Virus record (IMG/VR): IMGVR_UViG_3300021963_000403
Coordinates: 1-33,393 of that record
Direction: 5' to 3' (one strand)
Length of the DNA: 33,393 nt
Source: a virus
Shown here: positions 16-31,152 of the stretch, piece by piece
How the letters are laid out: every line of letters begins with the position of its first letter
Numbering within the stretch: the first letter of the stretch is position 1
The notes under the pieces: generated by a model
What the model saw: the letters and a program-made list of their open reading frames with translations, nothing else
Databases searched by the model: none
Told to the model about the DNA's origin: nothing
Made by a program: the position numbers and the translations under genes

Positions 16-1464
16 ATGATTGAACGTACCTCAGGATATAGCAACAAAGTAATGTGGGAGTACTGCGAGATGCTAAAGAAGGTTGTGCTTCAAACCAAAA
101 CGGTAAAGTCAGGACGAGGCAAAGCCATTGAGATACGTGAAGTTCTTAAGTACGACACAGAGAAGCATATCATAGACAAGATTGTAAATAGTTGTGAGCA
201 TTATAAAAACCTATACGAGATGGAGCAAAATAAATTTCAGTTCAGGGACTATCAGGTTGACATTATTCATAAAGGATATGAGATACTTTCAAAGTATAGG
301 TTTTTATACCTTGCGATGGAAGTTCGTACCGGAAAGACACTTACAAGTCTTGGCATAGCAGAGATGTGTAATATAAAAAAAGTTCTGTTCATTACTAAAA
401 AGAAAGCAATTAGTTCAATTGAAGCCGACTACAATACGTTAAAACCAACATACGCCCTATGTGTCATCAATTATGAAAGCCTACACCTTGTTATGAACGA
501 CAATAAATGGGATTTAATTGTTTGTGATGAGGCACATAGTATGGGTGCTTTCCCAAAAGCAAGTGGAAGAGCAGAGTTAGTGGCACAGGTGCTAAAAAAA
601 TATAGACCAATGGTGATACTACTTAGTGGGACACCAACACCTGAGTCGTACTCACAGATGTACCATCAAGTATATGCGATACCTAACAACCCGTTCAGAG
701 AGTTTAAAAACTTCTATAGGTTCTGCGACAAGTACGTTAAAATAAAACAGCGTAAGATTAACGGACTGTTTGTTAATGATTATAGTGGTGGACTTGATAC
801 TATCCTCAAAGAGATGGAGCCATACACTATTAACTACACGCAACAGGAAGCAGGATTTATGACTGAGACCAAAGAAGAGATACTTGAGGTTGAGATGAAG
901 CCAATGACTTATGCGATGATTAAAAAATTAAAGAAGGAATTGGTGATAGAAGGAAAAGAAGAAACTATTTTAGCAGACACTCCGGTCAAGTTAATGATGA
1001 AAGTGCATCAGTTGTGCAGTGGAACCGTAAAGTTTGAGAGTGGCAACAGTATGATACTTGACCTGAGCAAGGCTGAGTTTATCAAAGAGCAGTTTGAAGG
1101 ATGCAAGATTGGAATCTTCTACAAGTTCAAGGAAGAGTACAACGCACTCAAGCAGGTATTTGGTGATGACTTAACCTCTGAGTTAAGTGTCTTTGAAGAC
1201 ACCCATAAAAACATAGCACTACAGATTGTAAGTGGACGAGAAGGAATTAGTTTGAGACAGGCTGAGTACTTGGTTTATTACAACATTGACTTCAGTGCTA
1301 CGAGTTATTGGCAGTCAAAAGACCGGATGACCACAAAAGAACGCCTCGAGAATCAAGTATATTGGATTTTCTCGAAGGGTGGGATAGAGCACGACATCTA
1401 CAAGGCTGTCACAAAGAAGAAAGACTACACGGTGAATCATTTTAAACAAGACTTTTATTTATGA
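16..1464 (+). CDS. SF2 (SNF2-like) DEAD/DEAH-box helicase, possibly 5'-partial
   Basis: This is an ATP-dependent superfamily 2 helicase or translocase, probably for phage DNA replication or recombination. A Q-motif-like stretch (FQFRDYQ, residues 74-80) precedes a Walker A loop (MEVRTGKT, about 101-108), a DEAH Walker B box (171-174), motif III-type SGTP (about 204-207) and a C-terminal motif VI-like segment (YWQSKDRM). Both RecA-like halves are therefore present in 482 residues. The ATG at 16 is the first in the window, but the frame stays open to base 1 (five Lys/Asn codons), so the true start may lie upstream. Its stop overlaps the ATG of the next small gene (ATGA). It also contains one copy (1187-1202) of a 16-nt near-palindrome found twice more in the window. 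The helicase call is firm; the exact biological step is inferred from context. Confidence 0.88.
   Translation: MIERTSGYSNKVMWEYCEMLKKVVLQTKTVKSGRGKAIEIREVLKYDTEKHIIDKIVNSCEHYKNLYEMEQNKFQFRDYQVDIIHKGYEILSKYRFLYLAMEVRTGKTLTSLGIAEMCNIKKVLFITKKKAISSIEADYNTLKPTYALCVINYESLHLVMNDNKWDLIVCDEAHSMGAFPKASGRAELVAQVLKKYRPMVILLSGTPTPESYSQMYHQVYAIPNNPFREFKNFYRFCDKYVKIKQRKINGLFVNDYSGGLDTILKEMEPYTINYTQQEAGFMTETKEEILEVEMKPMTYAMIKKLKKELVIEGKEETILADTPVKLMMKVHQLCSGTVKFESGNSMILDLSKAEFIKEQFEGCKIGIFYKFKEEYNALKQVFGDDLTSELSVFEDTHKNIALQIVSGREGISLRQAEYLVYYNIDFSATSYWQSKDRMTTKERLENQVYWIFSKGGIEHDIYKAVTKKKDYTVNHFKQDFYL
1187..1202. repeat. 16-nt near-palindrome, copy 1 (in the helicase gene)
   Basis: An exact GTGTCTTTGAAGACAC lies within the helicase reading frame, where it encodes SVFEDT. 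The identical 16-mer occurs at 23860 and 30928, always in the same orientation on the + strand although the reading frames differ. Confidence 0.8.
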
Positions 1465-1625
1465 CACCAATAGAAGAAATATTTAAAGCATTAGAAACAC
1501 TCAATCAAAATGACTTTATTGATTGGTTATTAGCAAACAAACAAACACTAATTGAAAATGGTAAAATGTATCTGCATCAACGACAAGAATCGTCCGAGCA
1601 AAATACCACAGGAGAAATGGCTTAA
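1461..1625 (+). CDS. small hypothetical protein (54 aa)
   Basis: This short reading frame begins with an ATG that overlaps the helicase stop codon (ATGA), the arrangement expected for translational coupling. It encodes an acidic N-terminal half that looks helical (MTPIEEIFKALETLNQ) followed by an FIDWLLANK stretch and a polar tail. Its last 68 bases overlap the start of the next gene in another frame. Without it there would be a 93-base gap in an otherwise overlapping operon, which supports it being real. I recognise no family with certainty. It could alternatively be an untranslated leader for the downstream gene. Confidence 0.45.
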   Translation: MTPIEEIFKALETLNQNDFIDWLLANKQTLIENGKMYLHQRQESSEQNTTGEMA

Positions 1626-1884
1626 AGAAGGACAAGAGTACACCATCATCTTCACGTTGATAGTTCTCCCACAGAAAACTTTAGCAGTACAGTTGGAGGA
1701 GATTGACTTAGACGAAAGCTGTATGCCCTATGAGTTCTTCTTGGCGAATAGATTCGCATTCACTCAGGAGGAATTAGATAAGCTGATTGCATTTATAGAA
1801 GAATGTAATCACGTTAGTCTTTCTATCAAAGACTTGTTAAAACAAACGAATGAAAGAACAGCAGATACAGTCAAAAAAGATTAA
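1558..1884 (+). CDS. conserved small phage protein (108 aa)
   Basis: This small soluble protein of unknown function starts MVKCICINDKNRP and carries an EKWLKEGQEYTI segment and a PYEFFLANRF segment. I recall similar short proteins in Bacteroidota phages and prophages, but no activity is known to me. A TTG six bases upstream (1552) is in frame, but the ATG at 1558 gives the more natural start at the conserved N-terminus. The gene overlaps the preceding 54-aa frame and shares 35 bases with the following VRR-NUC gene, placing it inside the early operon. The two Cys near the N-terminus (CxC) are the only potential ligand residues I noticed. Confidence 0.7.
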   Translation: MVKCICINDKNRPSKIPQEKWLKEGQEYTIIFTLIVLPQKTLAVQLEEIDLDESCMPYEFFLANRFAFTQEELDKLIAFIEECNHVSLSIKDLLKQTNERTADTVKKD

Positions 1885-2149
1885 GGACTTAGAGGCTCAG
1901 GGATACTACGTAATCAAGTTGATTAACACCAACAAGAATGGCATCCCTGACCTCGTAGCTATCCCTCCAAATTCAGACGTATTGTTTGTTGAAGTAAAGA
2001 AGCCGGATGGAAAGATGTCTAAACTACAGGAGTTTAGGAAAAAGGAATTAGAAAACCACGGAGTAAAAGTGGAAATATTTAAAGGCAATCAAATCAAATT
2101 AAATGGAAAGCAAACAAGAAATGGACAACCTGCAGAAGATAGTGAATGA
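1850..2149 (+). CDS. VRR-NUC domain nuclease
   Basis: This 99-aa protein is a stand-alone VRR-NUC nuclease, a minimal PD-(D/E)XK-fold family found in phages and in FAN1-type proteins, where members cut structured or branched DNA. The signature is clear: NGIPDLVAI (catalytic Asp34), FVEVKKPDG (Glu48 and Lys50) and KLQEF (Gln60). The length is normal for phage single-domain members. It probably processes recombination or replication intermediates beside the helicase. It overlaps both neighbours in different frames (35 bases upstream, 47 bases downstream if the next gene starts at its first ATG). The family assignment is firm; the DNA substrate is inferred. Confidence 0.9.
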   Translation: MKEQQIQSKKIKDLEAQGYYVIKLINTNKNGIPDLVAIPPNSDVLFVEVKKPDGKMSKLQEFRKKELENHGVKVEIFKGNQIKLNGKQTRNGQPAEDSE

Positions 2150-2633
2150 TATGTTCAGTGTGAATGTAATGAAGAAGGTAAACAAAAGGGAATTTGTTAA
2201 TGCAAGAAAGGTATTTTCAAAGATATTAGTAGATAGGGGGTTTACCATTTCAGAGATAGGAAGATACCTTAAGAAACACCACTCGACCATCATACACTAT
2301 ATGTCAGACGCTGATGGGATGCTACAATATAGTCCCTCTGTAATGGATAAATACATAGCCTGCAGGGAAACTTTTTTACAAGGAAGAGAGCCAATGGAGT
2401 TAAGTCTTGAGCAGCTTGAACAAAAAATGTCTATTATTGGTTTAAATAATCGAATAGAAAAGTTAATTTTGGAGAGAACTAACTTATTAAAGAAGATAGA
2501 TAAGTACAAAAGACTTTCAGATATAATACAACTCGTTGATGGAAGGACGCAAAAAGGAAGAGAGTCGTTTGTGTTTAAAAAAATTAATCAAATGTTTAAT
2601 GGCATAACCGACTATGAACAACAACTCGAGTAG
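2103..2633 (+). CDS. DnaA domain IV-like DNA-binding protein
   Basis: Residues about 28-70 resemble the C-terminal DNA-binding domain (domain IV) of bacterial DnaA. The stretch FTISEIGRYLKKHHSTIIHY matches the DnaA helix-turn-helix signature (EIG...H(T/S)T(V/I)xH) that reads DnaA boxes. There is no AAA+ ATPase module. The rest (about 85-176) is charged and looks helical, probably a coiled coil for dimerisation. A phage protein of this kind could bind the phage origin or host DnaA boxes; I saw no obvious DnaA box cluster in the window. The 531-base frame overlaps the VRR-NUC gene by 47 bases if it starts here. An ATG at 2151, just after the VRR-NUC stop, would remove the first 16 residues and keep the domain intact. 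Confidence 0.72.
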   Translation: MESKQEMDNLQKIVNDMFSVNVMKKVNKREFVNARKVFSKILVDRGFTISEIGRYLKKHHSTIIHYMSDADGMLQYSPSVMDKYIACRETFLQGREPMELSLEQLEQKMSIIGLNNRIEKLILERTNLLKKIDKYKRLSDIIQLVDGRTQKGRESFVFKKINQMFNGITDYEQQLE

Positions 2634-2808
2634 CGAGAACTCACGTGCTGAGCGTATCGCATTTAGAACAAATGAACAGCACCTGCTGTTAGCAAACATC
2701 TACGAAAACATTGTGGACAGGGAATTTGTCCCCGCAGAACGAGACATAAGAAATTTAATTGTAGACCTACGACTAATATTAAAATCATTGGAAGATGACG
2801 ACTTTTGA
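2614..2808 (+). CDS. small hypothetical protein (64 aa)
   Basis: This small, probably all-helical acidic protein has a Ser/Asn-rich start (MNNNSSSENS) and ends LKSLEDDDF. It overlaps the upstream DnaA-like gene by 20 bases and the downstream nuclease gene by 14 bases, consistent with translation as part of the same operon. I recall similar short proteins ending in an acidic patch from Bacteroidota phages but know no function. The gene is supported by its tight packing and its continuous frame; nothing suggests catalysis. Confidence 0.65.
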   Translation: MNNNSSSENSRAERIAFRTNEQHLLLANIYENIVDREFVPAERDIRNLIVDLRLILKSLEDDDF

Positions 2809-3211
2809 AACCGAGACGGACTTAATCAGAGAGAAGAAAGCAATTGAACTATTCGTTAGTATCTTCGGTGGTTCGTTTAAAAAGTTAGACCCGCACGATG
2901 TAGACTACAAAGTCTTTGATAAAGACAAAAGTCTAATAGCCTACGCAGAAGTTAAAGGTCGTATCAGAACTATGCGTGCAGCGTATCCGCTGCCTATATC
3001 AGCAAAAAAATTAGTTAAGTTAATTGACAAGCGTATAACCCCTGTACTTATATGGGCGTGCGAGGATGGAATCATCTATGGCAAAGCCAATAAACTGCAG
3101 GGAGAAATTAAATGGGGAGGTCGCCCTCCCCGTGACGGTGCGGTTAATGATGCCGAGATGATGGTTTACTATGACAAGCAGAAAGAACTAAAGTATATTA
3201 GGTACATTTAG
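2795..3211 (+). CDS. PD-(D/E)XK superfamily nuclease
   Basis: This 138-aa protein shows the restriction-endonuclease-like core: an N-terminal helix with a Glu (REKKAIELF), DVDYKVFDKD (candidate catalytic Asp37) and YAEVKGR (Glu52 and Lys54), followed by a basic segment. The size and motif spacing fit small phage nucleases or Holliday-junction resolvase-type enzymes. With the VRR-NUC gene it makes two compact nucleases in one operon. Its TAG stop at 3209-3211 overlaps the TAA stop of the convergent giant gene, so there is no intergenic space. The 3' third contains a GC-rich hairpin (3114-3131). The nuclease fold is likely; the DNA substrate is unknown. Confidence 0.72.
   Translation: MTTFETETDLIREKKAIELFVSIFGGSFKKLDPHDVDYKVFDKDKSLIAYAEVKGRIRTMRAAYPLPISAKKLVKLIDKRITPVLIWACEDGIIYGKANKLQGEIKWGGRPPRDGAVNDAEMMVYYDKQKELKYIRYI
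3114..3131 (-). terminator. possible late-operon terminator hairpin inside the opposing gene
   Basis: A perfect 7-bp GC-rich stem (GGGGAGG / CCTCCCC) with a 4-base loop lies 77 bases beyond the stop of the leftward giant gene. In the leftward transcript the stem is followed by ATTTAATTT, a loose U-rich run, so it could end late transcription. On the + strand nothing U-rich follows. It codes for GGRPP in the nuclease gene, so it may be only a coding coincidence. Confidence 0.35.
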
Positions 3212-6200
3212 TTTTTTGTACTTGTGAAACTTGATATTACATTACCATTTGCATCTTTTCTTACTCTCTTAAACGTTGAACTTTTAATTGTTCCATCTGA
3301 ATTTCTTCTTGATGTACGCTTAGGTTTAACAGGTGCAACATATCCTTGCTCAATATCCTCCATCTTGCGAATCTCTTTGTTCATTTTCTTTTGAACTTCT
3401 TTCTCATTTTTATGGTCTTGATACCACTCAGATTGCGGACCAAAGTTTTGATTGTATAATTTTGGATTGTATTTTTTAAGTTCAGACTCATTATCATATT
3501 CTTCTCCGGTGTCAGGGTCTGTAAGCAAATCTCTTTTAATTTCTTTTTCTGCTTTATTGTCTTCAGCTATTGCTTTCTTTTCTTCAGGAGTAGCTTCTAA
3601 CTCGCTAACCTTTTCGTCAATTGCGTCTATTTCATCCTGAGACTTAGCTTTCTCTCTTAACTTATCAAGAGCCTCAATTTTTTGAGAAGTGTCGTCTGCT
3701 TTTTTATCTGCTCTTTCTTGCTTTGCTCCTGTTTCTTCTGATGATTTACCCTCCCCTTTCTTAGCATACTTTATAGCATTTCTTACAATACTATTTGCTT
3801 CTACAGGAGCCAATCCAAGATTAGATAAAACAGCAGGAGCAACCAATACACTTAATGCCTGTCTATCGCTTTCTGATATTTGTTTTACTTTACCAAAATC
3901 ATCAGTGTATTCTCCGGTAGCAGATAACTTTGATATGTCATATAACTGAGATGCTCTGTCTGCTGCGATACCAAATAAACCAAGACTTTGAAAATAATCT
4001 TGCTTAGGAACATTATAGATTGAGAACACGCTTTCCTTAGGAATGCCAAGTAAAGATTCAGTTAAAAAGTTCCCACCTTTTTGATATGCTTTATCTAACA
4101 CAGGAAGCGGAGACATAATGTCCGTGAATGTACTTGTCACCTGACCTTTAATAACATTATTAATTCTTTTTTTGCGTTCTTCCTCATCCTCGTCTTGACC
4201 TAATGCCCATTTAGCAGCAGAGCCTAATAAGATAGCAGAACCTGCAGATACTATTTTAAATGTCACCATCTCCACAGCAAATCCACTTAACGAACGAATA
4301 GCAATCTTCTTATCTTCTTCAGTAGCTGTTTTATCTGCTAATACAGCAAGGTCAGCACCAAGTCTTGCAGATTGGTTCATTCTGAAACTTGCAAAAGGAA
4401 GCAAAGTCTTAACAAGCAATTGGTTTGAAGATTCTTTATTTGAAAACATCTTACCGGATAAGTCCGCATCTGAAACGTTTTGTTGTCTATCAACCATACG
4501 TTGTGCGTAATCAGCAGCCTCCTCATTAACCTCGTGAGTATTGTAATCAATTCCTTTTATATCAATCCCTTGTTTCTTTAATGATTGCTCATAATATGTC
4601 ATCCAAGATGCACGAGCAATAAATACGTCAGGATTAACCAAGAACTTTTCTAACCACCATTTGTTTAGTTTCTCAACTTTTTTAAGCAATTCAGCACCTT
4701 TAGATTTAGATGCTTCATCAATTAATTTATTTAAAGATTCAACCTGAGCCTGAGATTCAATACCTCTATTTGAAATGGCATATCCTGCTCTATTAATAAA
4801 ATCATTCTTAGCTGCACTAAACATAGCACCCATATCTAAACCACCTGCATTGACAAGAGTGTTCATCGCTACAGGTATTACCTGTTTTATTGGCTGCAGC
4901 ACACCACCTAATGCTTGACCAACACCCACACTTGCTATCTTATTAAGACTTCTTACAACAGCAGACAACTCATCATTAGAATATGGATTCTTATTTCTAA
5001 TATTCCCAACATACAATTGAACTCTGTTCTTTAAAATCTTAGCATCTTCTGATTTAGGAACAATCTTTCTGAAATCAGGAGAGTTTAAAAATGCTTCTAT
5101 TTGTCTAATTGGAGCAGCAGTACCCATATCAATAAGGGCATCGTACATAGCATTAGCATTGTTCTTATCAAATGATAAGTCAATGTACATACTTGTCTCT
5201 CCGCTCTTAGGATTTGTTGGTAAAGTCTCCGGCTTAACAGCAGTCATTAATACCCCTGTTTCTTTCTTATATATAACGCCATCACTATTATTGAAAAATG
5301 CAGACTCATCATTGCTTAGTTCAACAGGACCCGTTTCGGCACTTAACTTTACAAATTTATCAGGAGTATAGTTTAAGTCTTTATCTAAAACTTTATTGTA
5401 AACATTTTCTGCTACGTCTGATAATTGTTCGTATTTATCTGCCCATTCTTTATTCCAAAAATCAATACCTTCTAAGTTAGTTACATCGGTATTGTCTTTT
5501 ATTTCTTGGATTGAATTGGCATCTTTTAAAATCTTGTCATATACTTTTTGGTATAACTCAGACTTTCTTTGCTCTTGGTCATTGCCTTGAGATAGAACTT
5601 TAATAGATTCTTTTATTAATTCTTTTCTTCTATTAAACTCAGCCTCCATTTGTTTGGCAGTACCAATTACATTTCTTATCATAAATGCAGCTAACCCACG
5701 TTCAACACTATTGTACTCACTATTGTAAGCCTCTCCGTTTGCTTTCTTTTTATAGAACTGACTTACATATTTGTCAACTATATTATTGGCTTCACGCTCA
5801 CCCATTGACTTATTGTTCTTCAACTTAGTTACACCCATCGCATCTTCCACTTCTCCTCCACGGTTAAACCCTTTAAACATCTTTTCAAATAAGATATTCA
5901 AGTTGGTTGTTTGCTCACCCAAATATCTACCAAATCTTTCAGACCAATATTTTCTCAATGGTTGTGCAACAATTCCTTTTTCAGCTAATTTTTTTAAGTT
6001 AAAATTTGCTGTGTATTCAGACAATACAGTCTCCATCTTAGCAGTAGAATGATTCTGTAAGAAATTACCAAGAGCATCAACAGCCTGTAAAGCCTCTTTA
6101 GGTTTCAATAAACTAAGGTCCATATCCATAAACCTTTTAACCAAAGCCTTTTGTTTTTTAGTAAACTCTACATCCTCGTCATTGAATTGGTCTTTGCCGG

Positions 6201-9200
6201 TATCAATGGTTGCATTAATAATGCTTGAGTAAATATCAAACATCTTTTGAATGGTATCTCTAATGATACCTTCATTGTATTTTGTGATAGATTCTTTGCT
6301 ATCCAATAACTGCATCATATCATCATAGCTTAACTCAGATACATCAACACCCATAAGGTCTTGAATCTCTTCAGCTTTTTGTAGACGAATCTTTTCATCC
6401 TGAGCAGCTAATGTTTTAGCAATATATTCAGATGCATTCTCAATGTTTACAGTATTGGCAAACGTAACCTTCTCGCCTTTGATGGTAGAACCTTTAATAG
6501 CTTCTTTAATCTTGGCAGCCATCTCGTTGTAGGCGTCAATATCCTCAACCATAGATGGGTCAATCTTAACAAACTGCTGAGCCATATCTCTCAGATTGGC
6601 GTTCTTGTTTTTATCTTTTGAAAACTTAGATATATCTTTCTTAAGACCATTGGCTTGACTTAACTTAGAAGAGTACTCTGCGTTAGCAAAGACCTTAGTC
6701 ATATAATCAATGAATGAATCAATTGATTTTTGGCTAAACATATTAACCTTGCTAAACTTACGAAGTACATTCTTAGCTTGAGTATCGCTAATGGTTCCAC
6801 GGGTAGTCAATTCCTTTATGCCTTTAGATAATTCATTGCTAACTTTCATCCAAGCAGACTTGGCATCTCTTGCCCCTCTTGCCAAATCTTTTATTTGTTT
6901 TTTCAAAAGATTCTTTTCGGTCATAGTAACCTTAGCATCTTTCTTTACAGCACCAAAAAACTTTTGAAATAAAGACTGACCTTCTGTTTCAGCCTCGGCT
7001 TCTGTTTTTAGTCTCGCTACACTTGGAGCAGACTTTTCTTTTAAGCCAAGTTTTTTGCGTGCTTCACGAACTAACTTTTCTTTTTGAACATCTGTCGCAT
7101 TTTTATACGCAGCAGATTGTTGAACAAGTTTCATTACGTTCTTTTCAATCTTAGCAGCATCTACTTTCTTTTTGTTTTGGGTCTCAATCATTGCGTCTAC
7201 TTTGCTATTTAATGCATCGTATCCCGGCAACTCATTTTCAGAAACACCTTCACCCTTATTGAAATATTCTTTTACAGTTTGCTCAATCTTGTCTCTCTTA
7301 TCTTCTCCTAATAAATCAACTAAATCTTTTACTGCCTCTTTAACTGCTGCAGCAAACTCAACGCCCTTATCCATCAGCTTACCAATCTCAACAACTGACT
7401 TAGCTACTAATTTTTTAACGTCTTCTGCCGTAATCCCTGAGGTTTTAGTTCCTTCAGGAAGTGTTGCACTAAACCAACTTGGTATTTGAAAGTTCTCTAT
7501 ATCTTCTGCTAATTTCTTAGCCTTAGCTTCAAACTCTCCAACCTGAGTCTCTGTCATATCTCTTTCTTGTAATCCTTGAGGACGCATAGTTACATCTCCT
7601 GCATCCGCCTCGTCAAACTGAGAGAACTCTTCAGGAAGTAACCCTATCTTTTGGTCAGCAAAAAGACCTTCTTGATATATTTTATCTACAATTAATTTTG
7701 CTCCTTCCTCATCTCCTTGCTCACGTAATTTCCTTGCCTCCTCTCTTAACTTGTCAATCTTTTCATTAACACCTGAGAAGTTTACATACGAATTTTGACC
7801 ACGTGTTTCAGTAGTCATTGCTCTTCTTGCAAGTGGAGAGAACATACGTGCGTGGATATTCCAAGCATTCTCTTCTCCTTTAGGACCAAATGAATTGCCT
7901 AACTCTGCGTGACCATAGAAATCGTGGATAGCACGGAACACATCGTTAACTAATAACGTATTTCCTTTAGCATCTTTAAACCCTGAATCTTGAAGCAAAG
8001 GGTTTCTTTGTCTTTGTTCTTCTGTAATAGGATTACTTCCAAATCCTGCTTCGGTAGCAAATATTTTTATACGATTATTATTTCTCAAGTCATCAATCAT
8101 CTCTTGAGAATTAGCATATGGCTCCTCATTGTCTACCTCAATAGTAAACCCTGAGTCAACAAAGTCTTTATATTGGTCTAATGTTTCTTTAGCCATTGCA
8201 TCATAAGCAGCACGAACCTCAGGATTAGTGGGGTCGTCTTTCATTGCTATGTAAGCATCAGCTATTCTTTTTCCTCTTGCTTCATCAAGTTTTCTTGTGC
8301 CGGCAAAACTTGGTCTTTCGGTGCCGAAAACTCTTTGATAATATCTATTCGCAACTTCTTTAGCAGCCGTGAGTGGCTTATTAAAGAGTCTGTTTCCTGC
8401 GATAGGTCCGGTTGTTGCTGTTGTTGGTTGTCCATTTTCTGTAGTTTGAGTTATTGTTTCTTGCGTCCCTTGAGGAGTGATGGTTTCTTCGGTCCCTGTG
8501 GTAGTGACTTCAAGTCCTTGGTCTCCTTCGCCCACTTGCTGCAATCCCATTTCGGATTGTTGGCTGAGTAGCAGGCTTTCATTTGCTGCTTGTTTTTGAA
8601 TGGCATCTTCGCTTAGTTTAGTTAGTGATTCATTGATTGCGTTTATTCTATCTTTCTGTGGCTTAACCAACGCAGGGTCTTTGTTAATTATTTGATTCTC
8701 TAAATCTTTCTTTTCTTTCAAAAGATTCATTGCATTCTTTTTTCCCTCTAAATCTAAATTCTCAGGCATAGACTTAAATAAACCAACAGAGTTTCTGTAG
8801 TTATTTAATGTTGTTTTTGCCTGCTCCATAGTAATCTCTCCTTGATTAACTTGGTTCTTTAGTTTTGTTACAAACGCTTTTTGAATATTCTCATCGTTAG
8901 CTGCTGATTCAAATGTTCTAAAAGTAATGTCACTCATATTTAAGAATCCCTTCTTAGTATAAGCTGTACTTACAGCAGTTGGCATACCCATAATGAATCC
9001 GCCCACTGCTTCTTGTGCTCCTGCTTTTGCTACATCTTTTACCCATTCAGCCGTAAACGTCTCAGGGTTATTAAACATTTTTGTGCCCTTAATTGCATTG
9101 TAAATATCTTTTACACCATACTCTGCTATTTGTTGAGCCGCACCCGTCTCAGCCTCCGCAAGACCTGCTGCAGTTAAAGTAAGAGCACCCTTTGCAATCA

Positions 9201-22986: not shown

Positions 22987-23000
22987 TAGTTCTTTTTTTA

Positions 23001-23040: not shown

Positions 23041-23073
23041 TCTTTCCAATCATCAATCAATAATCAGTATCTA

Positions 23074-23817
23074 CTAACCTAAAGTTGCTTCTAACATCTT
23101 TAGAGAGTCTATACCCTCATCGCTCTGTAAGAAGTGGGCAACCATCTCATATGGGTCTTCTCCAAACGGAACGGATAACATTTTCTTTTTGTTGGTGGCG
23201 GTATTAAACCATACCTCTTTCTCACCATTTCTTAATATCAATAACTTGTTCTCAAAGAATGTACGAACCTTGGCTTGGAATTTCAATTCAGGGTCGTTCA
23301 ATATGTTCAAGAACTCCTTAGGGTCTCTTTTAGCAAATACCAATATATCACGCTTTAACTCAGCAGTAGATATGGTAGATGGGTCTTTGCCAAACATCAC
23401 TCTCGTAAGAGTTTCTAATTGGTCTGTTGTAAGCTGACGTGCTTCTACTAATGCTTCAATCTCTAAATCCAAGTCTTGAACCTCTTCTGCTGCGTCCTTC
23501 TCCTTATCTACCTCTACAAAAATGTTGCCATTTAAAGGGTGATAATGTAAGAACTGCTGCAATACAGGGTTTGTTCTTGGGACTCTTAAGAATCCATCTT
23601 CAAAAATGATAGGCTCAATAATGAAGTTTCCGTCTTGCTCGTCCTCAAATGGGGACTTTTGGTTTGTGCAATATCTTAATGCACGATTCATATTGTTTTT
23701 CTCGTCAAACCACATTAGTGGAAAACGAGGATGATTCCTTGACGCTAACGTGTAAGATAGCGGGTTTCCTATTTTCAACTTATAGACTTTGTCTACAGAT
23801 GTTGTACTTTTTGCCAT
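23074..23817 (-). CDS. conserved capsid-module protein of unknown function (247 aa)
   Basis: This soluble, charged protein lies directly after the major capsid gene. Recognisable stretches are RVPRTNPVLQQFLHYHP, an acidic EVDKEKDAAEEVQDLDLEIE helix, FGKDPSTISTAELKRDILVF and VPFGEDPYEMVAHFLQSDEG. I recall this combination from proteins next to capsid genes of uncultured aquatic phages, always without assigned activity. It is flanked on both sides by intrinsic terminators (23849 and 23012), and no promoter consensus is visible in its own leader, so it is probably made by read-through from the MCP unit. A head decoration, head completion or capsid-assembly role would fit; none is shown. Confidence 0.62.
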   Translation of the reverse strand: MAKSTTSVDKVYKLKIGNPLSYTLASRNHPRFPLMWFDEKNNMNRALRYCTNQKSPFEDEQDGNFIIEPIIFEDGFLRVPRTNPVLQQFLHYHPLNGNIFVEVDKEKDAAEEVQDLDLEIEALVEARQLTTDQLETLTRVMFGKDPSTISTAELKRDILVFAKRDPKEFLNILNDPELKFQAKVRTFFENKLLILRNGEKEVWFNTATNKKKMLSVPFGEDPYEMVAHFLQSDEGIDSLKMLEATLG

Positions 23818-23848
23818 TTTATATTTAATTTAATTTGATTTAATTTTT

Positions 23849-23880
23849 AAAAAAGGAGAGTGTCTTTGAAGACACCCTCC
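23849..23880 (-). terminator. rho-independent terminator after the major capsid gene
   Basis: Starting 20 bases after the MCP stop, the leftward transcript forms GGAG, one mismatch, then the 6-bp GTGTCT/AGACAC stem with a 4-base loop (23855-23880), followed by six U residues (23849-23854). The inner stem is one of three copies of the 16-nt near-palindrome GTGTCTTTGAAGACAC in this window. It probably limits expression of genes downstream of MCP. Confidence 0.85.
23860..23875. repeat. 16-nt near-palindrome, copy 2 (in the MCP terminator stem)
   Basis: This is an exact copy of GTGTCTTTGAAGACAC (7-bp arms around TG). It forms the inner stem of the terminator downstream of MCP. With copy 1 it shares 19 identical bases (AGTGTCTTTGAAGACACCC). 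Confidence 0.8.
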
Positions 23881-23899
23881 CTGTAATTTTCTTCCTTTA

Positions 23900-25318
23900 T
23901 TATCCGTAACGGAATAAAACGAAGTTGTTAGCACCCAAGGTACATACGCAACGCTCAGAAAGGAAGTTAACCTCCATTGCATCCAAATCGCTGTTAGTCG
24001 CACCACCGGCAGAACCTGTAATCCAAGTTTTGTATCTGCGGTCTTCAGCTTCAGAAGCACGGTAACGAACGTGTAAGAAAGGACGCTTAGCGTTCTTGCC
24101 CATAATTTGGTCGTACACTGAAGTAGAACCTGCAGGAACCATCAAACCTGTGATAGTACCGGTTGCAGTTGCAGCAGTAGTATTTAAACCACCACGCATA
24201 GTTGGGTCATTTAAGTATTTCCAATCAGACTTGTAGAAATCGTAACCTCTACGGAATCCTGTGAAACCTAAATTTAACGCCATATCAACATCGTTATCGA
24301 AAAGACCAAAAGAAGCTGATTGAGCAACACCACCTGAAGTGTAGCCGTTCAATGTAGCTAACATATTGTCAATATCGAAACTTAATCCACGATTTACGAA
24401 TACTACGTTCTCTTCGATAGCACCTTGCTTATCTAAACGAGAAACGATAGAATCCCAATCAGATAAAGTTGTTGGAGTACCACCACCCCAAACGTTACCA
24501 CGATTGTTTACAACGTAGAAGATACCTTGAGAACCAATGTAACCTGCAGTTGCAGCACCTGAAGAAGATGCAGCAGGAACCGCTTCAATCATTGAAGTCT
24601 CTAAGTAATCCTCAAAACGTAAACGAGTCTCGTGCTCTGATTTCAAATACCACAAGTATCCTGTAGCACCGTTCTCAGTAGTAACTTCAACCCAACCGAT
24701 TTGAGCCATATCTGAGCCATTAACCGCATACTTATCTTTAATGATAATAGGGTTGTTGCTGTAGATATCATCTTCTGATTCTAATGAACCAACCATTCCG
24801 TTAGTTCCTTTCTTAAACTCAGAACCGTAAATGAATACAGTACAAGCTGTAGAAACAGCGAAAGATTGACCTGCAGTCTCGTAGTAAGCTACTGTGAAAG
24901 TAGTTGCTGAAGGAACTGCAGTTACGATAGCCTTGTTGAAAACACCTGATGTATTGTTTTGAATCATCAAAGTTTGTCCAACACGAATAGCGATATAAGT
25001 CACACCACTATCAGCTACAGTGAAAGTTGCTGTTGAAGCACCTGCTGCTGCTGCTGAAGTACAACTTGTGTACTTGATGTGTAAACGTCCTTGTTCTGCC
25101 CATTTGATTTGGTCAGAATTAGACGGCATCTCTGCTCCTACCATACGTAAGAAAGATGCGATTGTTCTATTACCATAACGCTCAAATTCTTTTTCATAAG
25201 TATCAGGAAGATACTGATTCAAAAAGTTGAAGTTGGTAATGTAGTTTGTTTGTAACGCTACCTGTTCTGCAGAGGGCTGCAGGGCATAGGTAGGGGAACT
25301 TAAAAGTGCACTTGCCAT
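23900..25318 (-). CDS. major capsid protein (HK97-like fold expected)
   Basis: This 472-aa protein follows the scaffold gene. Conserved stretches are FNFLNQYLPDTYEKEFERYG (residues 30-49), FLRMVGAEMPSNSDQIKWAE (56-75) and QGRLH (76-80). I associate this series with major capsid proteins of crAss-like and related Bacteroidota phages. Residues about 95-167 are a beta-rich insert (IRVGQTLMIQNNTSG, then AIVTAVPSATTFTV), resembling a module in the connector protein. The middle and C-terminal parts (RRGYDFYKSDWKYLND, FLHVRYR, FVLFRYG) look like the P and A domains of an HK97-type shell. A strong terminator follows the stop. The leader has only A/T-rich sequence, without a Shine-Dalgarno motif. The order supports the call strongly. 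Confidence 0.85.
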   Translation of the reverse strand: MASALLSSPTYALQPSAEQVALQTNYITNFNFLNQYLPDTYEKEFERYGNRTIASFLRMVGAEMPSNSDQIKWAEQGRLHIKYTSCTSAAAAGASTATFTVADSGVTYIAIRVGQTLMIQNNTSGVFNKAIVTAVPSATTFTVAYYETAGQSFAVSTACTVFIYGSEFKKGTNGMVGSLESEDDIYSNNPIIIKDKYAVNGSDMAQIGWVEVTTENGATGYLWYLKSEHETRLRFEDYLETSMIEAVPAASSSGAATAGYIGSQGIFYVVNNRGNVWGGGTPTTLSDWDSIVSRLDKQGAIEENVVFVNRGLSFDIDNMLATLNGYTSGGVAQSASFGLFDNDVDMALNLGFTGFRRGYDFYKSDWKYLNDPTMRGGLNTTAATATGTITGLMVPAGSTSVYDQIMGKNAKRPFLHVRYRASEAEDRRYKTWITGSAGGATNSDLDAMEVNFLSERCVCTLGANNFVLFRYG

Positions 25319-25338
25319 TTTTTTAAATTTTTAATTGT

Positions 25339-26424
25339 TTATATTCTTTTTATACTGCGAATTTTCAGGTTTCGTCCTGAATCAGGGTTTATCGCTTTCA
25401 CCTGCATTCCATCTGCAGACTTGCTAACCTCAGGTGCTTTACGCTCTGACATATTGATGTTTTTGGTTTTACGCATTACATCTTCAGTAGCATCAGACAT
25501 CCCTTGTTCATAAAAGAATTTAGCAAATTTGTCAGGATGCATTGCTATCGACAATGACCTATGATAGCCTGCTGCGTCTTTCATCAAACCTTGCTCATCC
25601 AAAAACTTATTAATAAAGTTTTGTGGTGTTGCTTGGTTCTTTTTCAACTCACTAGCGTCTCCCGGAGCAAACGTGAACTTCTTGTCATTAACATTGAACT
25701 CAAAACCTTTGAACTCTCCGCTAAAAACATCGTTCGTCTTTTGGTCAAACCATTGACGTTTACGATTGTTCTCCTCTTCTATGGTCTTTGCCTGTTGGGT
25801 ATATTGCTTATAGCTTTCGTATACTTCTTTCTCCTCATTCGGAATGAATGCCGTTCTTGACTCAAGAGGCACTCTGTATTGCTCCTTTTGGGAAGTGAAA
25901 TATTTCTTGGCTTCAGCAAGAACTTTCTTTTTTGCGATTTTTACCTTTTTAATAGAAGCCTCATCATCTAAGTCTTCGTCATACTTATAATCCTCTATTA
26001 ACGCCTCGATGTCATCACTATCAAGACCATCTTGTGTAGATGTAAGATACTCTTTAAGAAGTTGGTCAGGATTCATTGTATCAAAGTCTTTATTTAACTT
26101 TAAAAAATCCTCAAATCCACGACCCGTTTCTTTTTTATATTTCATATAAGCAGAAACATCTTCAGGTAGTGGCTCAGCTTCTTTACGCTCAGCTACCAAT
26201 TCATCCAATGAATTTATCTGCTTGTTATATCTTTTACCAATATATGAAAGAACGTCTTCATCTTTTAACTCCGTTTCTGCAGGTATTGGGTCTATTACAA
26301 CCTCTTTATCTACTTCATTATTTTCTTGATTTAACGACTCTTCGTGTTTATCAAGTAACTCTTTTTCTACTTCTTGAACACCTTTAGGTTCAAGCATTTC
26401 TACGGCTCTAACTTTATATTCCAT
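25339..26424 (-). CDS. putative scaffolding protein
   Basis: This 361-aa, highly charged and largely helical protein lies between portal and major capsid genes, the standard place for the scaffold. The N-terminal half is strongly acidic (for example KHEESLNQENNEVDKE, and DDIEALIEDYKYDEDLDDE). The C-terminus is basic (SGRNLKIRSIKRI), as in scaffolds that bind the capsid protein through a basic C-terminal tail. A HPDKFAKFFYEQGMSDATED segment precedes it. A promoter-like TATTTTTG with an A-rich leader (AAATCAAATCAAATG) lies just upstream, so it heads the scaffold/MCP unit. I see no protease motif. Function is inferred from position and composition. Confidence 0.7.
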   Translation of the reverse strand: MEYKVRAVEMLEPKGVQEVEKELLDKHEESLNQENNEVDKEVVIDPIPAETELKDEDVLSYIGKRYNKQINSLDELVAERKEAEPLPEDVSAYMKYKKETGRGFEDFLKLNKDFDTMNPDQLLKEYLTSTQDGLDSDDIEALIEDYKYDEDLDDEASIKKVKIAKKKVLAEAKKYFTSQKEQYRVPLESRTAFIPNEEKEVYESYKQYTQQAKTIEEENNRKRQWFDQKTNDVFSGEFKGFEFNVNDKKFTFAPGDASELKKNQATPQNFINKFLDEQGLMKDAAGYHRSLSIAMHPDKFAKFFYEQGMSDATEDVMRKTKNINMSERKAPEVSKSADGMQVKAINPDSGRNLKIRSIKRI

Positions 26425-26444
26425 TTGATTTGATTTTATTTATA

Positions 26445-26474
26445 CAAAAATAGATAAAAATTTCGACATTTTAA
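26445..26474 (-). promoter_or_regulatory. candidate promoter for the scaffold/MCP unit
   Basis: On the - strand TATTTTTG (26445-26452) matches the TAnnTTTG consensus. A TTA, one base off the -33 TTG, lies 19 bases upstream at 26472-26474, overlapping the portal stop. The sequence downstream (TATAAATAAAATCAAATCAA) ends in the scaffold ATG and resembles the leader at 33061-33083. Confidence 0.55.
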
Positions 26475-28906
26475 CGAGGCTCAAATTCAGCTAAATCAAA
26501 ACCATCTAAGCTATCCTCATTTGATTCAAAACTTATTGGAGGTAAATTATTCTTTCTTTGATTAATTAATTTAGATTGCTCTGTATTTTGTTGGCTAATT
26601 CTTTTTGCTTTAGCATCCTCTTTTGTCTGCTCTCTAGTATTTATATTGCTTGTCTCCATACCGTGAAGTTGCATATTGTAATCAAATTCCTCACGCATCA
26701 ATTGAGATTTCATCTCTGCTTCTTTCTCTAACTTTTGAATCTCAAATGCTACCTCGGCTTGTTTGATTTGCATTTTAGACCTTGTCTCCATATCTATCTT
26801 CTGCATAGCAACCTGCCCTGCCATCTCCTGAGACTTTAATTGTTGCTGAGCAATCATTGCTTGCTTCTGCATCTCATTCTTCTCTAAACGCTCTTGAGTC
26901 TTAATACGCTTCATCTTTAATAACTGATTAGCAAGTTTAATATTGCGAATCTCACGTATGTCAATTGCATCCTCAAGGTTAATGTCGCCTTTAGATAATG
27001 CCATCTGAATGTTCTGCTCAAGCTGTGCTTTTTGCTCTTCATCAGGTGAAACTTCAATGAATATACCAAAGTCATAAATATAAAGGTCCTTTATCTCCTC
27101 TAATATAGATACATTGTATTTACCAATTTGATTGGCAAACTCATCTTTGAAGTCAGCGTATTGCAAAATGTCAGCAACTCTATAAGTTAAAGCCTCTGCT
27201 AATGAACGATAAACATACAAAGAACCATCAAGGATGTGCCTTGTAGCTGTATTTGAGTTTAATGCAGCCATTTTTTGTAGACCAACTAATGAGTTAGGGT
27301 CAGGATTAGAGCCATCTCTTGCTTCGTTAAGACCGGTCACAGACCTAATCATATCGATGTAGTGGTTCATATTTGTAATCAACATCTGCGTTTTAGCAGC
27401 ACCTGAGTTAGAGTTTAACTGAGTGATAGGCACTCTTGCATTGTTAAAGTCACCATCTTGCGTGAAGCTACGTCCAATTACGCTACCCGTTTGGAAGTAT
27501 AGTCTTAAAGCATCCTCAGGATTGTATGCGTTACCCGTACCTAGGTCAATCTCGTTTAGACCATCAGCATCAATAAAGACACCATCAGGAACTACACGAG
27601 CAATAACTTGTTGTAATTTTAAATGCGTGATTTGAATCAAGTCAGCAAATGGTATCATCCTTCTACATAATGACTCAATAACCCCCTTGTACATACGTGG
27701 AGCACAAGCTACATAGTTTGGTAGTGCGTGTTGGGATGCTGACTTAGGACGAACCATATTCTCAGACAATTTCCATTGTAATAAGATATTGGTACCCATT
27801 ACCATAATACCTTCATACCAAACGTCAATTGTTTTCTCTATTTTTTCAAAATTACCTTCCTCCATCATTTCGGTAGGAGGATTAAATGTATCATCTTTCT
27901 CAATAACACGAGAACCACCTCCTTCTAAAATTTTCTTTTTATAAACAACTTTCTTAGAGGTCTTATAATTAAAATATAATAAAGTACAAGTATCACGATT
28001 GAACATACTATTCTCGTAGAATTGTGCTACGTTGTAATAGTCATACCAAGCCTGACTGTATTGTGTAATTTCTTGTAAATCTTCTTTAGTCAAAGATTGG
28101 TCAATCTTCATTAACTCTGTTATTGCAAGTGTTTTAATTTCACCCCAATAAAAACAATCTTTAAAGAATGGGTCTTCAGTATAACTATAAACAATATTAG
28201 CAGGGTCTACATACGTAAGTTTAACCCCTGTTCCTTGTAAAAATTCGTGTTTAGCAACTCCAATACCAACTACGGTAATATCATAGTCCACTCTTTTACG
28301 AATGTCATCATAATGATTATCATCAAAAATGGTATTGATTGCTTCTTCTTCTGCAATCTCAATAGCAGGCTTAAACTTAAGCTGCATATATAAAGCCAAC
28401 TCATCATCAGTCTCAGGCAAATCTTCCGGGTCCATCATAAAAGCATTGACACCTGTCTTCTCTTTTATGGTTGTTAAAATATCTTTTGATACCATTTGAG
28501 ACTCAAGCATATCTTGATACTTACTTCTATTAGATTGAGACATTGCATCTTGTGCATATGCTTTAACCTTAAAAAGCCTATCAGACATTCCATTAACTAC
28601 AATATCAACAAACTTTGGTATAATAGGAACAGGAGTCCAATCTAAATTTAAATAAGACAAATCGCCATCAATAGCCAATTCGTTTTTGTATTTGCCAATT
28701 GGTTGTTCACCTCTCGCATATAGTCTTAGCCTACGGAAATCTCTCCATTGGCTATAGTACCTACAAGAGTTACCATCTTTACGAAACCACTCATATTGTA
28801 TCCCCTGCCCAACTTGAAGTCCAAATTCCTTCGATGCTCTTTCCGCATCAGTTGTTAATTGACTTGGGAAAGATGTGGCATTTATTTGTACTGTTACATT
28901 TTTCAT
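26471..28906 (-). CDS. portal protein
   Basis: This 811-aa protein lies directly after TerL, with a 4-base overlap (ATGA). The middle part has the features of podovirus portals: LNLDWTPVPIIPKFVDIVVN (wing), a long helical segment with YVDPANIVYSYTEDPFFKDC, and MNHYIDMIRSVTGLNEARDG (about the stem and clip). Residues from about 620 to 800 are a long Gln/Lys/Glu-rich coiled coil (QKAQLEQNIQMALSKGD onward) resembling the barrel of large podovirus portals, followed by an acidic tail ending FDLAEFEPR. It forms the dodecameric DNA channel at the unique capsid vertex. The order (TerL, portal, scaffold, MCP) and the length make this call firm. Confidence 0.87.
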   Translation of the reverse strand: MKNVTVQINATSFPSQLTTDAERASKEFGLQVGQGIQYEWFRKDGNSCRYYSQWRDFRRLRLYARGEQPIGKYKNELAIDGDLSYLNLDWTPVPIIPKFVDIVVNGMSDRLFKVKAYAQDAMSQSNRSKYQDMLESQMVSKDILTTIKEKTGVNAFMMDPEDLPETDDELALYMQLKFKPAIEIAEEEAINTIFDDNHYDDIRKRVDYDITVVGIGVAKHEFLQGTGVKLTYVDPANIVYSYTEDPFFKDCFYWGEIKTLAITELMKIDQSLTKEDLQEITQYSQAWYDYYNVAQFYENSMFNRDTCTLLYFNYKTSKKVVYKKKILEGGGSRVIEKDDTFNPPTEMMEEGNFEKIEKTIDVWYEGIMVMGTNILLQWKLSENMVRPKSASQHALPNYVACAPRMYKGVIESLCRRMIPFADLIQITHLKLQQVIARVVPDGVFIDADGLNEIDLGTGNAYNPEDALRLYFQTGSVIGRSFTQDGDFNNARVPITQLNSNSGAAKTQMLITNMNHYIDMIRSVTGLNEARDGSNPDPNSLVGLQKMAALNSNTATRHILDGSLYVYRSLAEALTYRVADILQYADFKDEFANQIGKYNVSILEEIKDLYIYDFGIFIEVSPDEEQKAQLEQNIQMALSKGDINLEDAIDIREIRNIKLANQLLKMKRIKTQERLEKNEMQKQAMIAQQQLKSQEMAGQVAMQKIDMETRSKMQIKQAEVAFEIQKLEKEAEMKSQLMREEFDYNMQLHGMETSNINTREQTKEDAKAKRISQQNTEQSKLINQRKNNLPPISFESNEDSLDGFDLAEFEPR

Positions 28907-31152
28907 CTAATTAATTGACTTGTTGTTCCATCGTTTTTATACTTAGCAAAGTTAATAATTAAATTTGATTCTTTTTTCTCAGGCATATATAAATGCTTTT
29001 GATTTGCCATTATACATAATCCCGAACTAATAGAGGCATCAAATTTTGTTCTGTCGTTTATATCAAACCTCGCCCAATCCTCAAGTGTTCTTGTAAATGG
29101 CATTGTGCCCATTTCCTCAGGGTCTCTATATTTTGCTTCTAAATCTAATCCTACAAACTTCTCGATGTAAGATTCAATTGCAGATGCGTGTGCTTGTTTT
29201 ACATCTTCTGATGAGTTTGGAATACCTCCTAACTCACGCTCAGTCTTTGTTAACTTAGCCATTTGCTTATCCGGTCTATTTACAGAAAAACCTCTGTACC
29301 CTCTATTTTTAATATGATACAAAAGTCTTGGCTTGTTATTCTCCACTAAGATAGGCATTCCGTAGAATATACACGCCATTAGCACCTCTTCAAAAAATAT
29401 TTCTGCTGTTTGTGGACGAGCAATGTACTCCAAAAAGAATTGATTGACAGGAGCGTCATCCATATGAAACTTAGTCATACCGTGTAGTGCACCATTAGAC
29501 CCACGTCCCCCAACCACGGCTGATATGTCGTATGAGTCACAACCAAATGAGCCAATATGCTCATTACCGGGATACTTAACTCCGTTACGTATATGTATGT
29601 TGTTCTGCATATGCTTAGGTGGTGCCCAAGCAATATTAAACCTACCACGAGTGTCAGGTGTCCAAATAACCTCAGTATCTTTGATGCCATCTTTCCACGA
29701 AAAAGACCCACGAGTAAGGTAATGTTCCTTAATCATTGAGTCGTTATAGTCAATCTGCTGATATAGTTTTGTTAAATTAAACAAAGCCTGTTTACTCTCA
29801 TCTCTGAAAGCGTGAGACTCTGTACGTGGGAACTGACGATAGAACTCATTCAGTGCATCGGCATCACTCTTTAAAGAGTCAACCTCTGCTTCCCAATAGT
29901 CAATGGCTCCGTTTGTAATCCAACTGCCATCTACGCCCATTATAGGCTCATTAGGCTTACGGAAAACGGGATGACCATATCTATCAATGAATCCTTCCAT
30001 ATTCCATTCCATAGGCACAAACAATGCATATAAGCCACTCTTTGTTTGTCCATTTGCATTGCGAACAGCTATTCTTGAGTCTTCATAGATATCTTTGTAG
30101 TTCTGACCTCCTTTACTTAAAGCATTTGAGGTTGAACCCATCATACACTTGCCGATAATTTTACTACCTAAACGCAAACAAGTTTTAGTTACACGCCAAT
30201 TCTCTTTGATGTTTACGGGCTTTGTCCATTTTGCTGATTCATCGTGAGCCAAGAATAATAACTTCTCTCCATCATAGGAATTATCTTCTGTATTCTTCCA
30301 ATCTATTGATGTATCTAATCCGTCAATCTCATTGTCGTTAGATTCGTACATATTCTTCTTAGTAATCTTAGATGCAGGAACTCTAAATGCCAACTCAGTC
30401 TTTGGCTTGTCCATACCATCCATTACAGGCTTAAAAAAGAAAGGTAATCGACTATTAATAGGAACTACCTTGTCGGTAAACATCTTTTTAGCATCAGCAC
30501 CCGTCTTGGATAGGATACCTATACGTGCGTCACGTGCGAGCGTACCTATATTAATACACTCTGAAGATGACATAAATGAGAATCCCGAACGTCTAATCTT
30601 TAGATATATCATACCAAAAGACCTTGGGTCAGCACGACAAGCCTCCCAAAATATCCAATAGATTCTATTTGCTTCACGGAAATCAGGGTACCCTACGTCA
30701 ATGCTTGACCATTGCAAGTACATATAATGTGAGCCCGTTATGTAGGTTTTAACCCCATTGTTCATAAACCAAAAACCTTGGTCTCTATAATCAAACTCTT
30801 GTTCAATATAATCAACCCATCTATCTTTAAATTCTTTTGGCTTTTCATTCCATTGGAATATGGACTGTATTTTGGATAACTCACGGGGGATATCTTGACG
30901 CTCCCAATACTGCTCTGCTTTAGATGTGTGTCTTTGAAGACACTTATCGGGTGTGGCAGGAAGAGCGATAAACAATCCCTCTATCTCTACTATTTGACCT
31001 ATCTGTCCGGTCTTTGAAATAACAACAACATTATATTGGTCGTTATATCCATACAACCACGACCTCACTCTATTTTTATTAGAGATGACGGAAGCCGGTA
31101 TATGACTTTCAACTATACGGCATAAACTATTGCTTTGACCTTCTTTCTGCAA
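28903..31152 (-). CDS. terL: terminase large subunit
   Basis: This is the packaging motor ATPase and nuclease (749 aa). The ATPase half has a deviant Walker A, IRRSGFSFMSSS (about residues 185-196), a Walker B LLFLAHDESAK (about 297-307) and a coupling motif GKCMMGSTSN. The C-terminal RNase H-like nuclease is marked by FGCDSYDIS (catalytic Asp near 535) and a second site near VENNKPRLL (about 602-610). No ATG occurs in frame in the first 120 or so codons. The best start is a TTG at 31152, which lies inside the 3' end of the preceding 95-aa gene (26-base overlap), with an in-frame stop 30 bases upstream. It contains copy 3 of the 16-nt near-palindrome. The portal start overlaps its stop. Confidence 0.9.
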   Translation of the reverse strand: MQKEGQSNSLCRIVESHIPASVISNKNRVRSWLYGYNDQYNVVVISKTGQIGQIVEIEGLFIALPATPDKCLQRHTSKAEQYWERQDIPRELSKIQSIFQWNEKPKEFKDRWVDYIEQEFDYRDQGFWFMNNGVKTYITGSHYMYLQWSSIDVGYPDFREANRIYWIFWEACRADPRSFGMIYLKIRRSGFSFMSSSECINIGTLARDARIGILSKTGADAKKMFTDKVVPINSRLPFFFKPVMDGMDKPKTELAFRVPASKITKKNMYESNDNEIDGLDTSIDWKNTEDNSYDGEKLLFLAHDESAKWTKPVNIKENWRVTKTCLRLGSKIIGKCMMGSTSNALSKGGQNYKDIYEDSRIAVRNANGQTKSGLYALFVPMEWNMEGFIDRYGHPVFRKPNEPIMGVDGSWITNGAIDYWEAEVDSLKSDADALNEFYRQFPRTESHAFRDESKQALFNLTKLYQQIDYNDSMIKEHYLTRGSFSWKDGIKDTEVIWTPDTRGRFNIAWAPPKHMQNNIHIRNGVKYPGNEHIGSFGCDSYDISAVVGGRGSNGALHGMTKFHMDDAPVNQFFLEYIARPQTAEIFFEEVLMACIFYGMPILVENNKPRLLYHIKNRGYRGFSVNRPDKQMAKLTKTERELGGIPNSSEDVKQAHASAIESYIEKFVGLDLEAKYRDPEEMGTMPFTRTLEDWARFDINDRTKFDASISSGLCIMANQKHLYMPEKKESNLIINFAKYKNDGTTSQLIR
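30928..30943. repeat. 16-nt near-palindrome, copy 3 (in the TerL gene)
   Basis: An exact GTGTCTTTGAAGACAC lies within the 5' part of the TerL gene on the non-coding strand; the TerL frame reads CLQRH through it. The leftward transcript has no U-run after it, so here it is not a terminator. Confidence 0.8.

Follow-up and report, generated by a model that had tools for sequence, protein, structure and literature searches.

A selected 16-bp palindrome in podovirus genomes and a candidate binding protein of a new family

What makes the same 16 nucleotides recur, letter for letter, in a helicase gene, in the terminator of a capsid gene and in a terminase gene of one virus? The question arises in the 33,393-base linear virus record IMGVR_UViG_3300021963_000403, which was analyzed at its full length (the window). 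By comparison with related sequences, the window covers about half of a podovirus genome of ~60 kb that is related to Flavobacterium and Cellulophaga phages; the early region is not in it. The closest named relative was MW202828 (Podoviridae sp. ctfjg026, 60,850 bp, circular record) with an identity of 78% in the terminase large subunit (TerL), followed by Flavobacterium and Cellulophaga phages with TerL identities below 60%. The 16-mer was found to be a real, selected, genome-wide site. It is most likely the docking site of one putative phage protein, for which a strong candidate of a new family could be identified.

The original prediction, made from the window alone, had placed three exact copies of GTGTCTTTGAAGACAC in a helicase coding sequence, in the terminator stem of the major capsid protein (MCP) gene and on the minus strand of the TerL gene. 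A search of the window confirmed the copies and their contexts:

1187..1202, plus strand: putative operator copy 1, inside the helicase coding sequence (16-1464, plus strand), where it encodes VFEDT
23860..23875, no strand assigned: putative operator copy 2, in the spacer that separates the MCP gene from the next minus-strand gene
30928..30943, minus strand: putative operator copy 3, inside the TerL coding sequence, where TGT CTT CAA AGA CAC encodes CLQRH

The 19 bases said to be common to copies 1 and 2 were recovered as well. The exact triple occurred 0 times in 100 shuffles, in line with the claim that it exceeds chance, and no fourth copy with up to three mismatches was present in the window (0.33 expected by chance). 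A chance repeat was rejected on the basis of the shuffles and the mismatch search. All three window copies have a central TG on the plus strand, as had been noticed, but this orientation is not a rule, since both orientations occur in the relatives. The site centers found there are TG, CA, TA or CG, i.e. a pyrimidine-purine (YR) step.

The exact 16-mer was found in at least 120 viral-contig stretches, several of which carry 5–9 copies within 15 kb. Among 24 related records (23 IMG/VR contigs and MW202828), 22 matched at up to two mismatches, and most of the ~60-kb records carried 8-16 copies of GTGTCTTYRAAGACAC or close variants. A reversed control pattern was found 0 times in all 24 records and, in a later scan, once in 1 of 22 records. 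The raised genome-wide count and the retention of copies at the same places in related genomes, both of which had been put forward as checks on the original prediction, were therefore observed. The family consensus is GTGTCKTYRAMGACAC, a 7+7 palindrome around the YR step. When palindromes were counted de novo, GTGTCTT-NN-AAGACAC or its inner part ranked top in 10 of 10 motif genomes (in G004 in a tie with AT repeats), and no such repeated palindrome was detected in G003, G010, G031 or 42 kb of elemoA. Sites of the TT type are absent from MW202828 and G003 and occur once in G010. MW202828 carries 14 copies of GTGTCGTTAACGACAC instead, in which one letter is changed per arm; these lie at 43.7-55.2 kb, within the early region and behind it.

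For the analysis of selection on the nucleotides, the following features of the window are relevant:

28903..31152, minus strand: terminase large subunit gene, which carries copy 3
16..1464, plus strand: helicase gene (ResIII/SNF2-related), which carries copy 1; its start may lie upstream of the window
23900..25318, minus strand: major capsid protein gene, upstream of copy 2; matches proteins annotated as structural/major capsid protein
23849..23882, minus strand: intrinsic terminator of the MCP transcript, a 13-bp hairpin (23853-23882) followed by a U-run; copy 2 is the upper stem

TerL sequences were gathered by TerL alone from 80 loci, of which L154 (incomplete) as well as L130 and L188 (internal stops) were left out, resulting in 78 sequences (77 loci and the window). 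The site was present in 42 of these 78, always as TGT CTT CAA AGA CAC, while variation was free on both sides. All five CLQRH codons were identical in 42 of the 44 sequences with this pentapeptide, the other two (L142 and L143) being one synonymous base off. For 499 other pentapeptide windows, which overlap and are each common to at least 35 sequences, the commonest codon set reached a median of 16% and a maximum of 76%. TerLs without the site mostly encode other residues at that place. Protein conservation as the cause was rejected, because the site-less TerLs differ in residues, while 42 of 44 CLQRH sequences share one codon set. In the helicase, 9 of the 11 TT-type motif genomes (the window being one of the 11) have identical site codons (VFEDT) at the aligned position. 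The exceptions were G017, with TTC for TTT and still in the family, and G014, in which the site is shifted upstream within the gene by about a dozen codons. At this place other residues are encoded in G003, G031 and MW202828. In both genes the site swaps existing codons and inserts none. The codons of the coding copies are frozen, as the original prediction had required of a selected site, and this would be a case of a DNA site strong enough to dictate amino acids of a terminase and a helicase.

The terminator of the MCP transcript behaves differently. In the window it folds with -19.8 kcal/mol (z -4.8) and is followed by UUUU, and a strong hairpin at the MCP end was kept in 9 of 9 genomes folded. 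Its sequence is free in G003, G010, G012, G031, MW202828 and elemoA, whereas the top of the stem is the 16-mer in the window, G002 and G004. A mere terminator repeat was rejected, since the relatives keep the terminator without the 16-mer. Taken together, the sites are under selection at the nucleotide level, and many of them are syntenic.

A protein that follows the sites was searched for with a profile of the open reading frames of G002 and MW202828 in 14 genomes. Only one family, with a length of ~205 amino acids (aa), was present in at least 10 of the 11 motif genomes and in 0 of the 3 others (G003, G010 and elemoA); the 11th, G017, has the gene beyond its first 40 kb. In 19 records of at least 54 kb, this candidate binder was found in 16 of 16 with 8-16 sites (per 54-65 kb) and in 0 of 3 with 0-1 sites, a count that weighs less in its favor in that the motif itself had led to 10 of the 16 records with the binder. 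The candidate binder is also present in G023, a relative whose TerL is 96% identical to that of the window. In the TerL tree, G003 (0 sites) is sister to G012 (12 sites and the binder), and G031 (neither) shares a starred clade with G004 (8 sites and the binder). GTGTC-N6-GACAC was present in 77 of 77 loci found with binder queries, although many of these are closely related and some come from contigs already in the set. In 60 of 71 loci the start of the binder gene is preceded by a site at a distance of 20-400 nt (13% expected), most often 205-291 nt, and in 47 of 75 loci a site follows the binder stop within 40 nt (1.6% expected), as would be expected for self-regulation. The sites largely come and go with the candidate binder gene. 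On these sequence comparisons, the 16-mer is probably the DNA operator of this ~205-aa protein.

The candidate binder consists of a helical N-terminal part, an acidic linker and a small C-terminal alpha/beta part. Its deeper structure model has a mean pLDDT of 88 and a pTM of 0.72, and in this model helices 76-84 and 88-98 look like a helix-turn-helix (HTH). The consensus KVFGWQKS spans the end of the first helix, the turn and the start of the second helix, and K82, V83, F84, G85, K88 and S89 are conserved in at least 90% (the L316 protein is a fragment). MW202828, which has the GTGTCGTT operator, has NAYGLSKAQGHKYARAS in place of KVFGWQKS in its protein (UOF82534.1). A second protein with a possible HTH, encoded at window 2103-2633, resembles DnaA domain IV (PF08299, 25.1 bits, under the cut-off). 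It was rejected as the binder, since homologues occur in the motif-less G003 and the near-motif-less G010 and none were found in the motif-bearing G006 and G015.

Several observations weigh against the assignment of the 16-mer to this protein. Only three independent pairs on starred branches could be compared; all were concordant, but they are too few for significance (p 0.25). Co-variation of operator and binder rests on the one clear switch in MW202828, whose protein is 23-37% identical to the binders aligned, while L240, L282 and L297 yield no simple residue-to-base rule, and the binder of G017 is very diverged with unchanged operator arms. Sites are not found at every syntenic place: the binder-bearing G012 has no MCP site, and the TerL site of G001 is only degenerate. 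G010, in which neither the binder nor other sites were detected, keeps a single exact helicase copy (C1:45344-45359), which is perhaps a relic. Among 11 records without the binder, G024, G025, G026 and G028 (34-40 kb) have 2-5 sites and G022 has one odd copy, while G027, G029 and G030 have none. G024, G026 and G028 lack an early marker gene, and in G025 this gene is located next to the end of the contig; these four contigs may therefore just not reach the binder gene. G010 and G031 have no match to the marker either, and G003 has a weak one. The early region of G010 and G031 may differ or, in the case of G031 (56 kb), may not be contained in the record. Early-region coverage does not affect the finding that G031 and G003 have no sites, since this finding covers TerL, MCP and helicase.

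The candidate binder also matches no known family or sequence in Pfam, PHROGs or the PDB chains, and no PDB chain was a confident fold match. A relation to the L5 or TipsytheTRex repressor did not show up in these PDB sequence and fold comparisons. The best PHROGs match (E 0.0013) was to a family of unknown function, and a Pfam adenylate cyclase domain (E 2e-4 in 1 of 36 members) was judged a chance match. In BFVD, four unnamed viral proteins were found at E ≤ 0.001. A pattern-based scan of bacteria gave one weak match, in Ensifer (32% over ~60 aa). Among 50,697 phage records only MW202828 has a homologue, and none was found in plasmids. For the most diverged binders, no further relative was found for that of MW202828, and the search with that of G017 returned its own contig only.

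The siting of the copies was analyzed with 269 distinct early sites, de-duplicated on 12+12 flanking bases. For 205 of them, a stop codon was found at a distance of -1 to 51 nt. A following ATG is present for 236 sites, and its distance from the site is bimodal, mainly 10-49 and 70-99 nt. The box TAnnTTTG, which we take to be the flavobacterial −7 element, precedes 16 sites with its end at a distance of 26-29 nt (0.8 expected) and 14 sites with its end at 55-57 nt (0.6 expected), both offsets having been picked after the counts were seen.

Many early sites adjoin a putative hammerhead ribozyme. Of 14 hammerheads that a strict finder detected in the motif genomes, 11 begin 0-10 nt after a site; one more was detected in the site-less elemoA. 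A looser hammerhead core was found within 90 nt after 85 of the 269 early sites, compared to 2.2% at random positions. An ATG gap of 60-99 nt was found for 49 of the 85 sites with this core vs. 37 of the 184 without it. In one scanned stretch, Rfam RF00008 matched over the full model length with 43.5 bits (E 7.8e-8), while its gathering score is 48.5, and no match at the gathering score was found in the 11 sources scanned. With the loose pattern, G010 has one hammerhead and elemoA has two, and none were detected in G003, G031, MW202828, G009, 40 kb of G017 and the window. The hammerhead-like ribozymes are of type III, lie between early genes and usually directly 3′ of the operator, as at L221:17592-17646 (G001); more were seen in pieces of G002, G004, G005, G006, G012, G014 and G015.

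The original prediction had offered several functions, among them a dimeric DNA-binding protein, a partition site and an RNA hairpin. The first is best supported, with its candidate found outside the window, and the other two are disfavored. For the RNA, the 16-mer would be a hairpin (GUGUCU-UCAA-AGACAC) bound by a phage RNA-binding protein in nut/boxB-like antitermination or as a protector of mRNA ends, and the DNA palindrome would be a by-product. Several results that speak against a DNA operator fit this explanation: intergenic copies often lie in longer stems, base pairing is more frequent than expected at flank positions 2-6, though not at flank position 1, A.C is avoided in these flanks, and the mRNA strand carries CA in 180 of the 269 early sites and in 77 of the 95 hammerhead sites. 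The frequent hammerhead cores after early sites also fit. Single changes at position 6/11 on the mRNA strand were T.G in 17, C.A in 13 and C.G in 9 cases, so the half-site variants are strand-symmetric. An RNA stem should favor T.G (G.U), and no preference for it over C.A was seen; the motif is therefore read as a double-stranded DNA (dsDNA) operator for a dimer. The coding copies point the same way: of those classed by text pattern as helicase and GroEL, 44 of 55 have TG on the mRNA strand and are still kept. They belong to a set of 640 sites, without those less than 75 nt from a locus end, in which the text-pattern classes may misplace sites and 362 are classed as 'other'. In addition, the MCP gene keeps unrelated terminator hairpins in site-less relatives, and an HTH is predicted in the tracking protein. 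That the site acts only as an RNA-bound hairpin is quite unlikely, although RNA pairing of the flanks does matter in the intergenic copies. The core is accordingly read as a DNA operator, and its palindrome as having found a second use in RNA, with the intergenic copies also forming part of RNA hairpins.

A centromere or chromosome-organizing site (parS- or matS-like), which would segregate or compact an episomal phage genome, would account for copies that are spread over the genome and also lie inside genes. A 16-bp palindrome fits the size of parS. Tyrosine integrase and resolvase (PF00589 and PF00239) were found in 0 of 20 records, which suits an episome, but the same holds for ParA (PF13614); control genomes matched these three in 14, 10 and 14 of 14. 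With no ParB family among the Pfam matches of the binders and with early copies concentrated at gene boundaries, such a role is very unlikely. An activator or middle/late switch factor acting on the same operators, in place of a silencer, would agree with the promoter-like boxes near the sites and the lack of any sign of lysogeny genes. At these places the box precedes the site and does not follow it, and several of the conserved sites are deep in coding sequence, which makes this alternative unlikely. That the 16-mer is a mobile or repetitive extragenic palindromic (REP)-like repeat, or an ordinary recurring terminator hairpin, is suggested by copy 2 as a terminator stem. Coding copies replace codons without insertion, their codons are frozen, the site sets change largely together with one gene, and a whole variant set exists in MW202828, so that this explanation is hardly credible.

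The preferred explanation as a whole, a dsDNA operator bound by the candidate HTH dimer in a stoperator-like silencing of a new type, is favored with some reserve. A homodimer of the phage-encoded ~205-aa protein would bind the 16-bp palindrome with its flexible YR step in the center; the binder gene would be found where the early region begins, in the genome half absent from the window. The dimer would sit in leaders shortly downstream of promoter-like boxes, immediately behind stop codons and within a small number of long genes. The candidate binder probably occupies these sites. With less certainty, the bound dimer may block RNA polymerase at many places at once. Early genes would be shut down and late genes dampened, as with mycobacteriophage stoperators, and the binder would control its own gene via the site ~205-290 bp upstream. 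Positions after boxes and stop codons are where a roadblock would stop polymerase escape and read-through, which suggests the stoperator analogy. Silencing of elongation or initiation as the operator's role is assigned slightly less than an even chance. Because the operator is a palindrome, intergenic copies would also form an RNA hairpin, which may serve again as the MCP terminator stem or precede a hammerhead ribozyme on its 5′ side; the 3′ ends of mRNAs would then be set by this ribozyme. The lack of integrase, resolvase and ParA makes the need for a repressor less clear and counts against this explanation. A classical lysogenic repressor is not assured, and the system may equally well serve a temporal shut-off or a carrier state.

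According to excerpts of PMC9283540, the stoperators of cluster A mycobacteriophages (L5 repressor) are asymmetric 13-mers with predicted monomer binding, and L5 has more than twenty sites. Judged by the same excerpts, the two systems have in common a single phage protein for which an HTH is predicted, a short site that recurs many times genome-wide, sites in short intergenic spaces and near promoters, and perhaps a strand bias relative to transcription (PMC9283540). Here such a bias is seen in the CA-rich early sites, while TA and CG centers are symmetric and the helicase and GroEL coding copies mostly have TG. In contrast to L5, the sites number 8-16 per genome, fewer than its more than twenty, and are 16-bp palindromes with a YR center, not asymmetric 13-mers (PMC9283540, excerpts). 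The candidate binder shows no detectable similarity and no integrase was found, frozen sites lie in TerL and helicase and others in GroEL and a giant virion gene, and hammerhead-like ribozymes adjoin many early sites. Since the asymmetric site and temperate genes, two L5-type features, were not found, the system is not assigned to the L5 type, though it would work most like a stoperator system.

Palindromic sites of 13-16 bp that are spread over a replicon and bound by dimers are also known from ParB/parS and MatP/matS. The sites described here are likewise palindromic and spread over the genome. They differ from ParB/parS in the absence of ParA (0 of 20 records), in early siting that follows gene boundaries, and in that no ParB family is among the 15 Pfam families matched by any of the 36 binder members at E 0.1. 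The partition option is therefore disfavored. Prophage hammerheads flank single genes, and processing of long transcripts was proposed for them in the excerpts of PMC3088659. In both cases several hammerhead-like ribozymes lie next to phage genes (PMC3088659, excerpts), whereas here they stand beside an operator palindrome, in phages where no integrase was found. In the open-access PubMed Central literature, the three 16-mers were not found, nor were stoperators together with Bacteroidota, repressor sites in flavobacterial phages or anything relevant on hammerheads with Flavobacterium and bacteriophage. Among the matches listed, the stoperator literature mostly concerns actinobacteriophages.

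These comparisons allow a bolder, tentative and rather doubtful proposal: an undescribed control system of Bacteroidota podoviruses without recognizable integrases, in which a protein of a new family would act on 8-16 palindromic operators, some of them in essential coding sequence. Many early operators would be joined to a hammerhead, combining a DNA roadblock with an RNA hairpin that caps ribozyme-made mRNA ends, and operator and binder specificity would switch as a set (GTGTCTT to GTGTCGTT). If true, this switch would give the phages separate immunity groups, and genome-wide transcriptional silencing would have evolved more than once, also in phages without recognizable lysogeny genes. Such a system would parallel the stoperators but use another protein and palindromic sites, and its carriers would be a widespread environmental group of Bacteroidota phages. 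The proposal gives a testable function for an unannotated early protein and a handle on carrier-state or immunity behavior in these phages, and the pairing of operator and hammerhead is a concrete hypothesis for phage hammerhead function.

Operator copies were also seen beside or within tRNA-like sequence, either with a T-arm-like stretch downstream or with a tRNA-like gene just 3′ of the site (L213:15128, L256:11871, L257:10662, L247:6782, L245:17789 and L249:18353). ARAGORN found no tRNA in these six loci and 2 tRNAs in all 13 loci scanned.

A gene at window 3208-10965 encodes a 2585-aa minus-strand protein without a Pfam match, and the gene at the same place in MW202828 encodes 3859 aa. In several relatives, an operator copy lies inside its counterpart.

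Finally, TTTGATTTGATTTAATTT-like repeats were identified at window 26412-26442, 33050-33073, 2080-2110 and 23819-23845. Several of them lie directly upstream of start codons, and these stretches are perhaps leader sequences of the host type.

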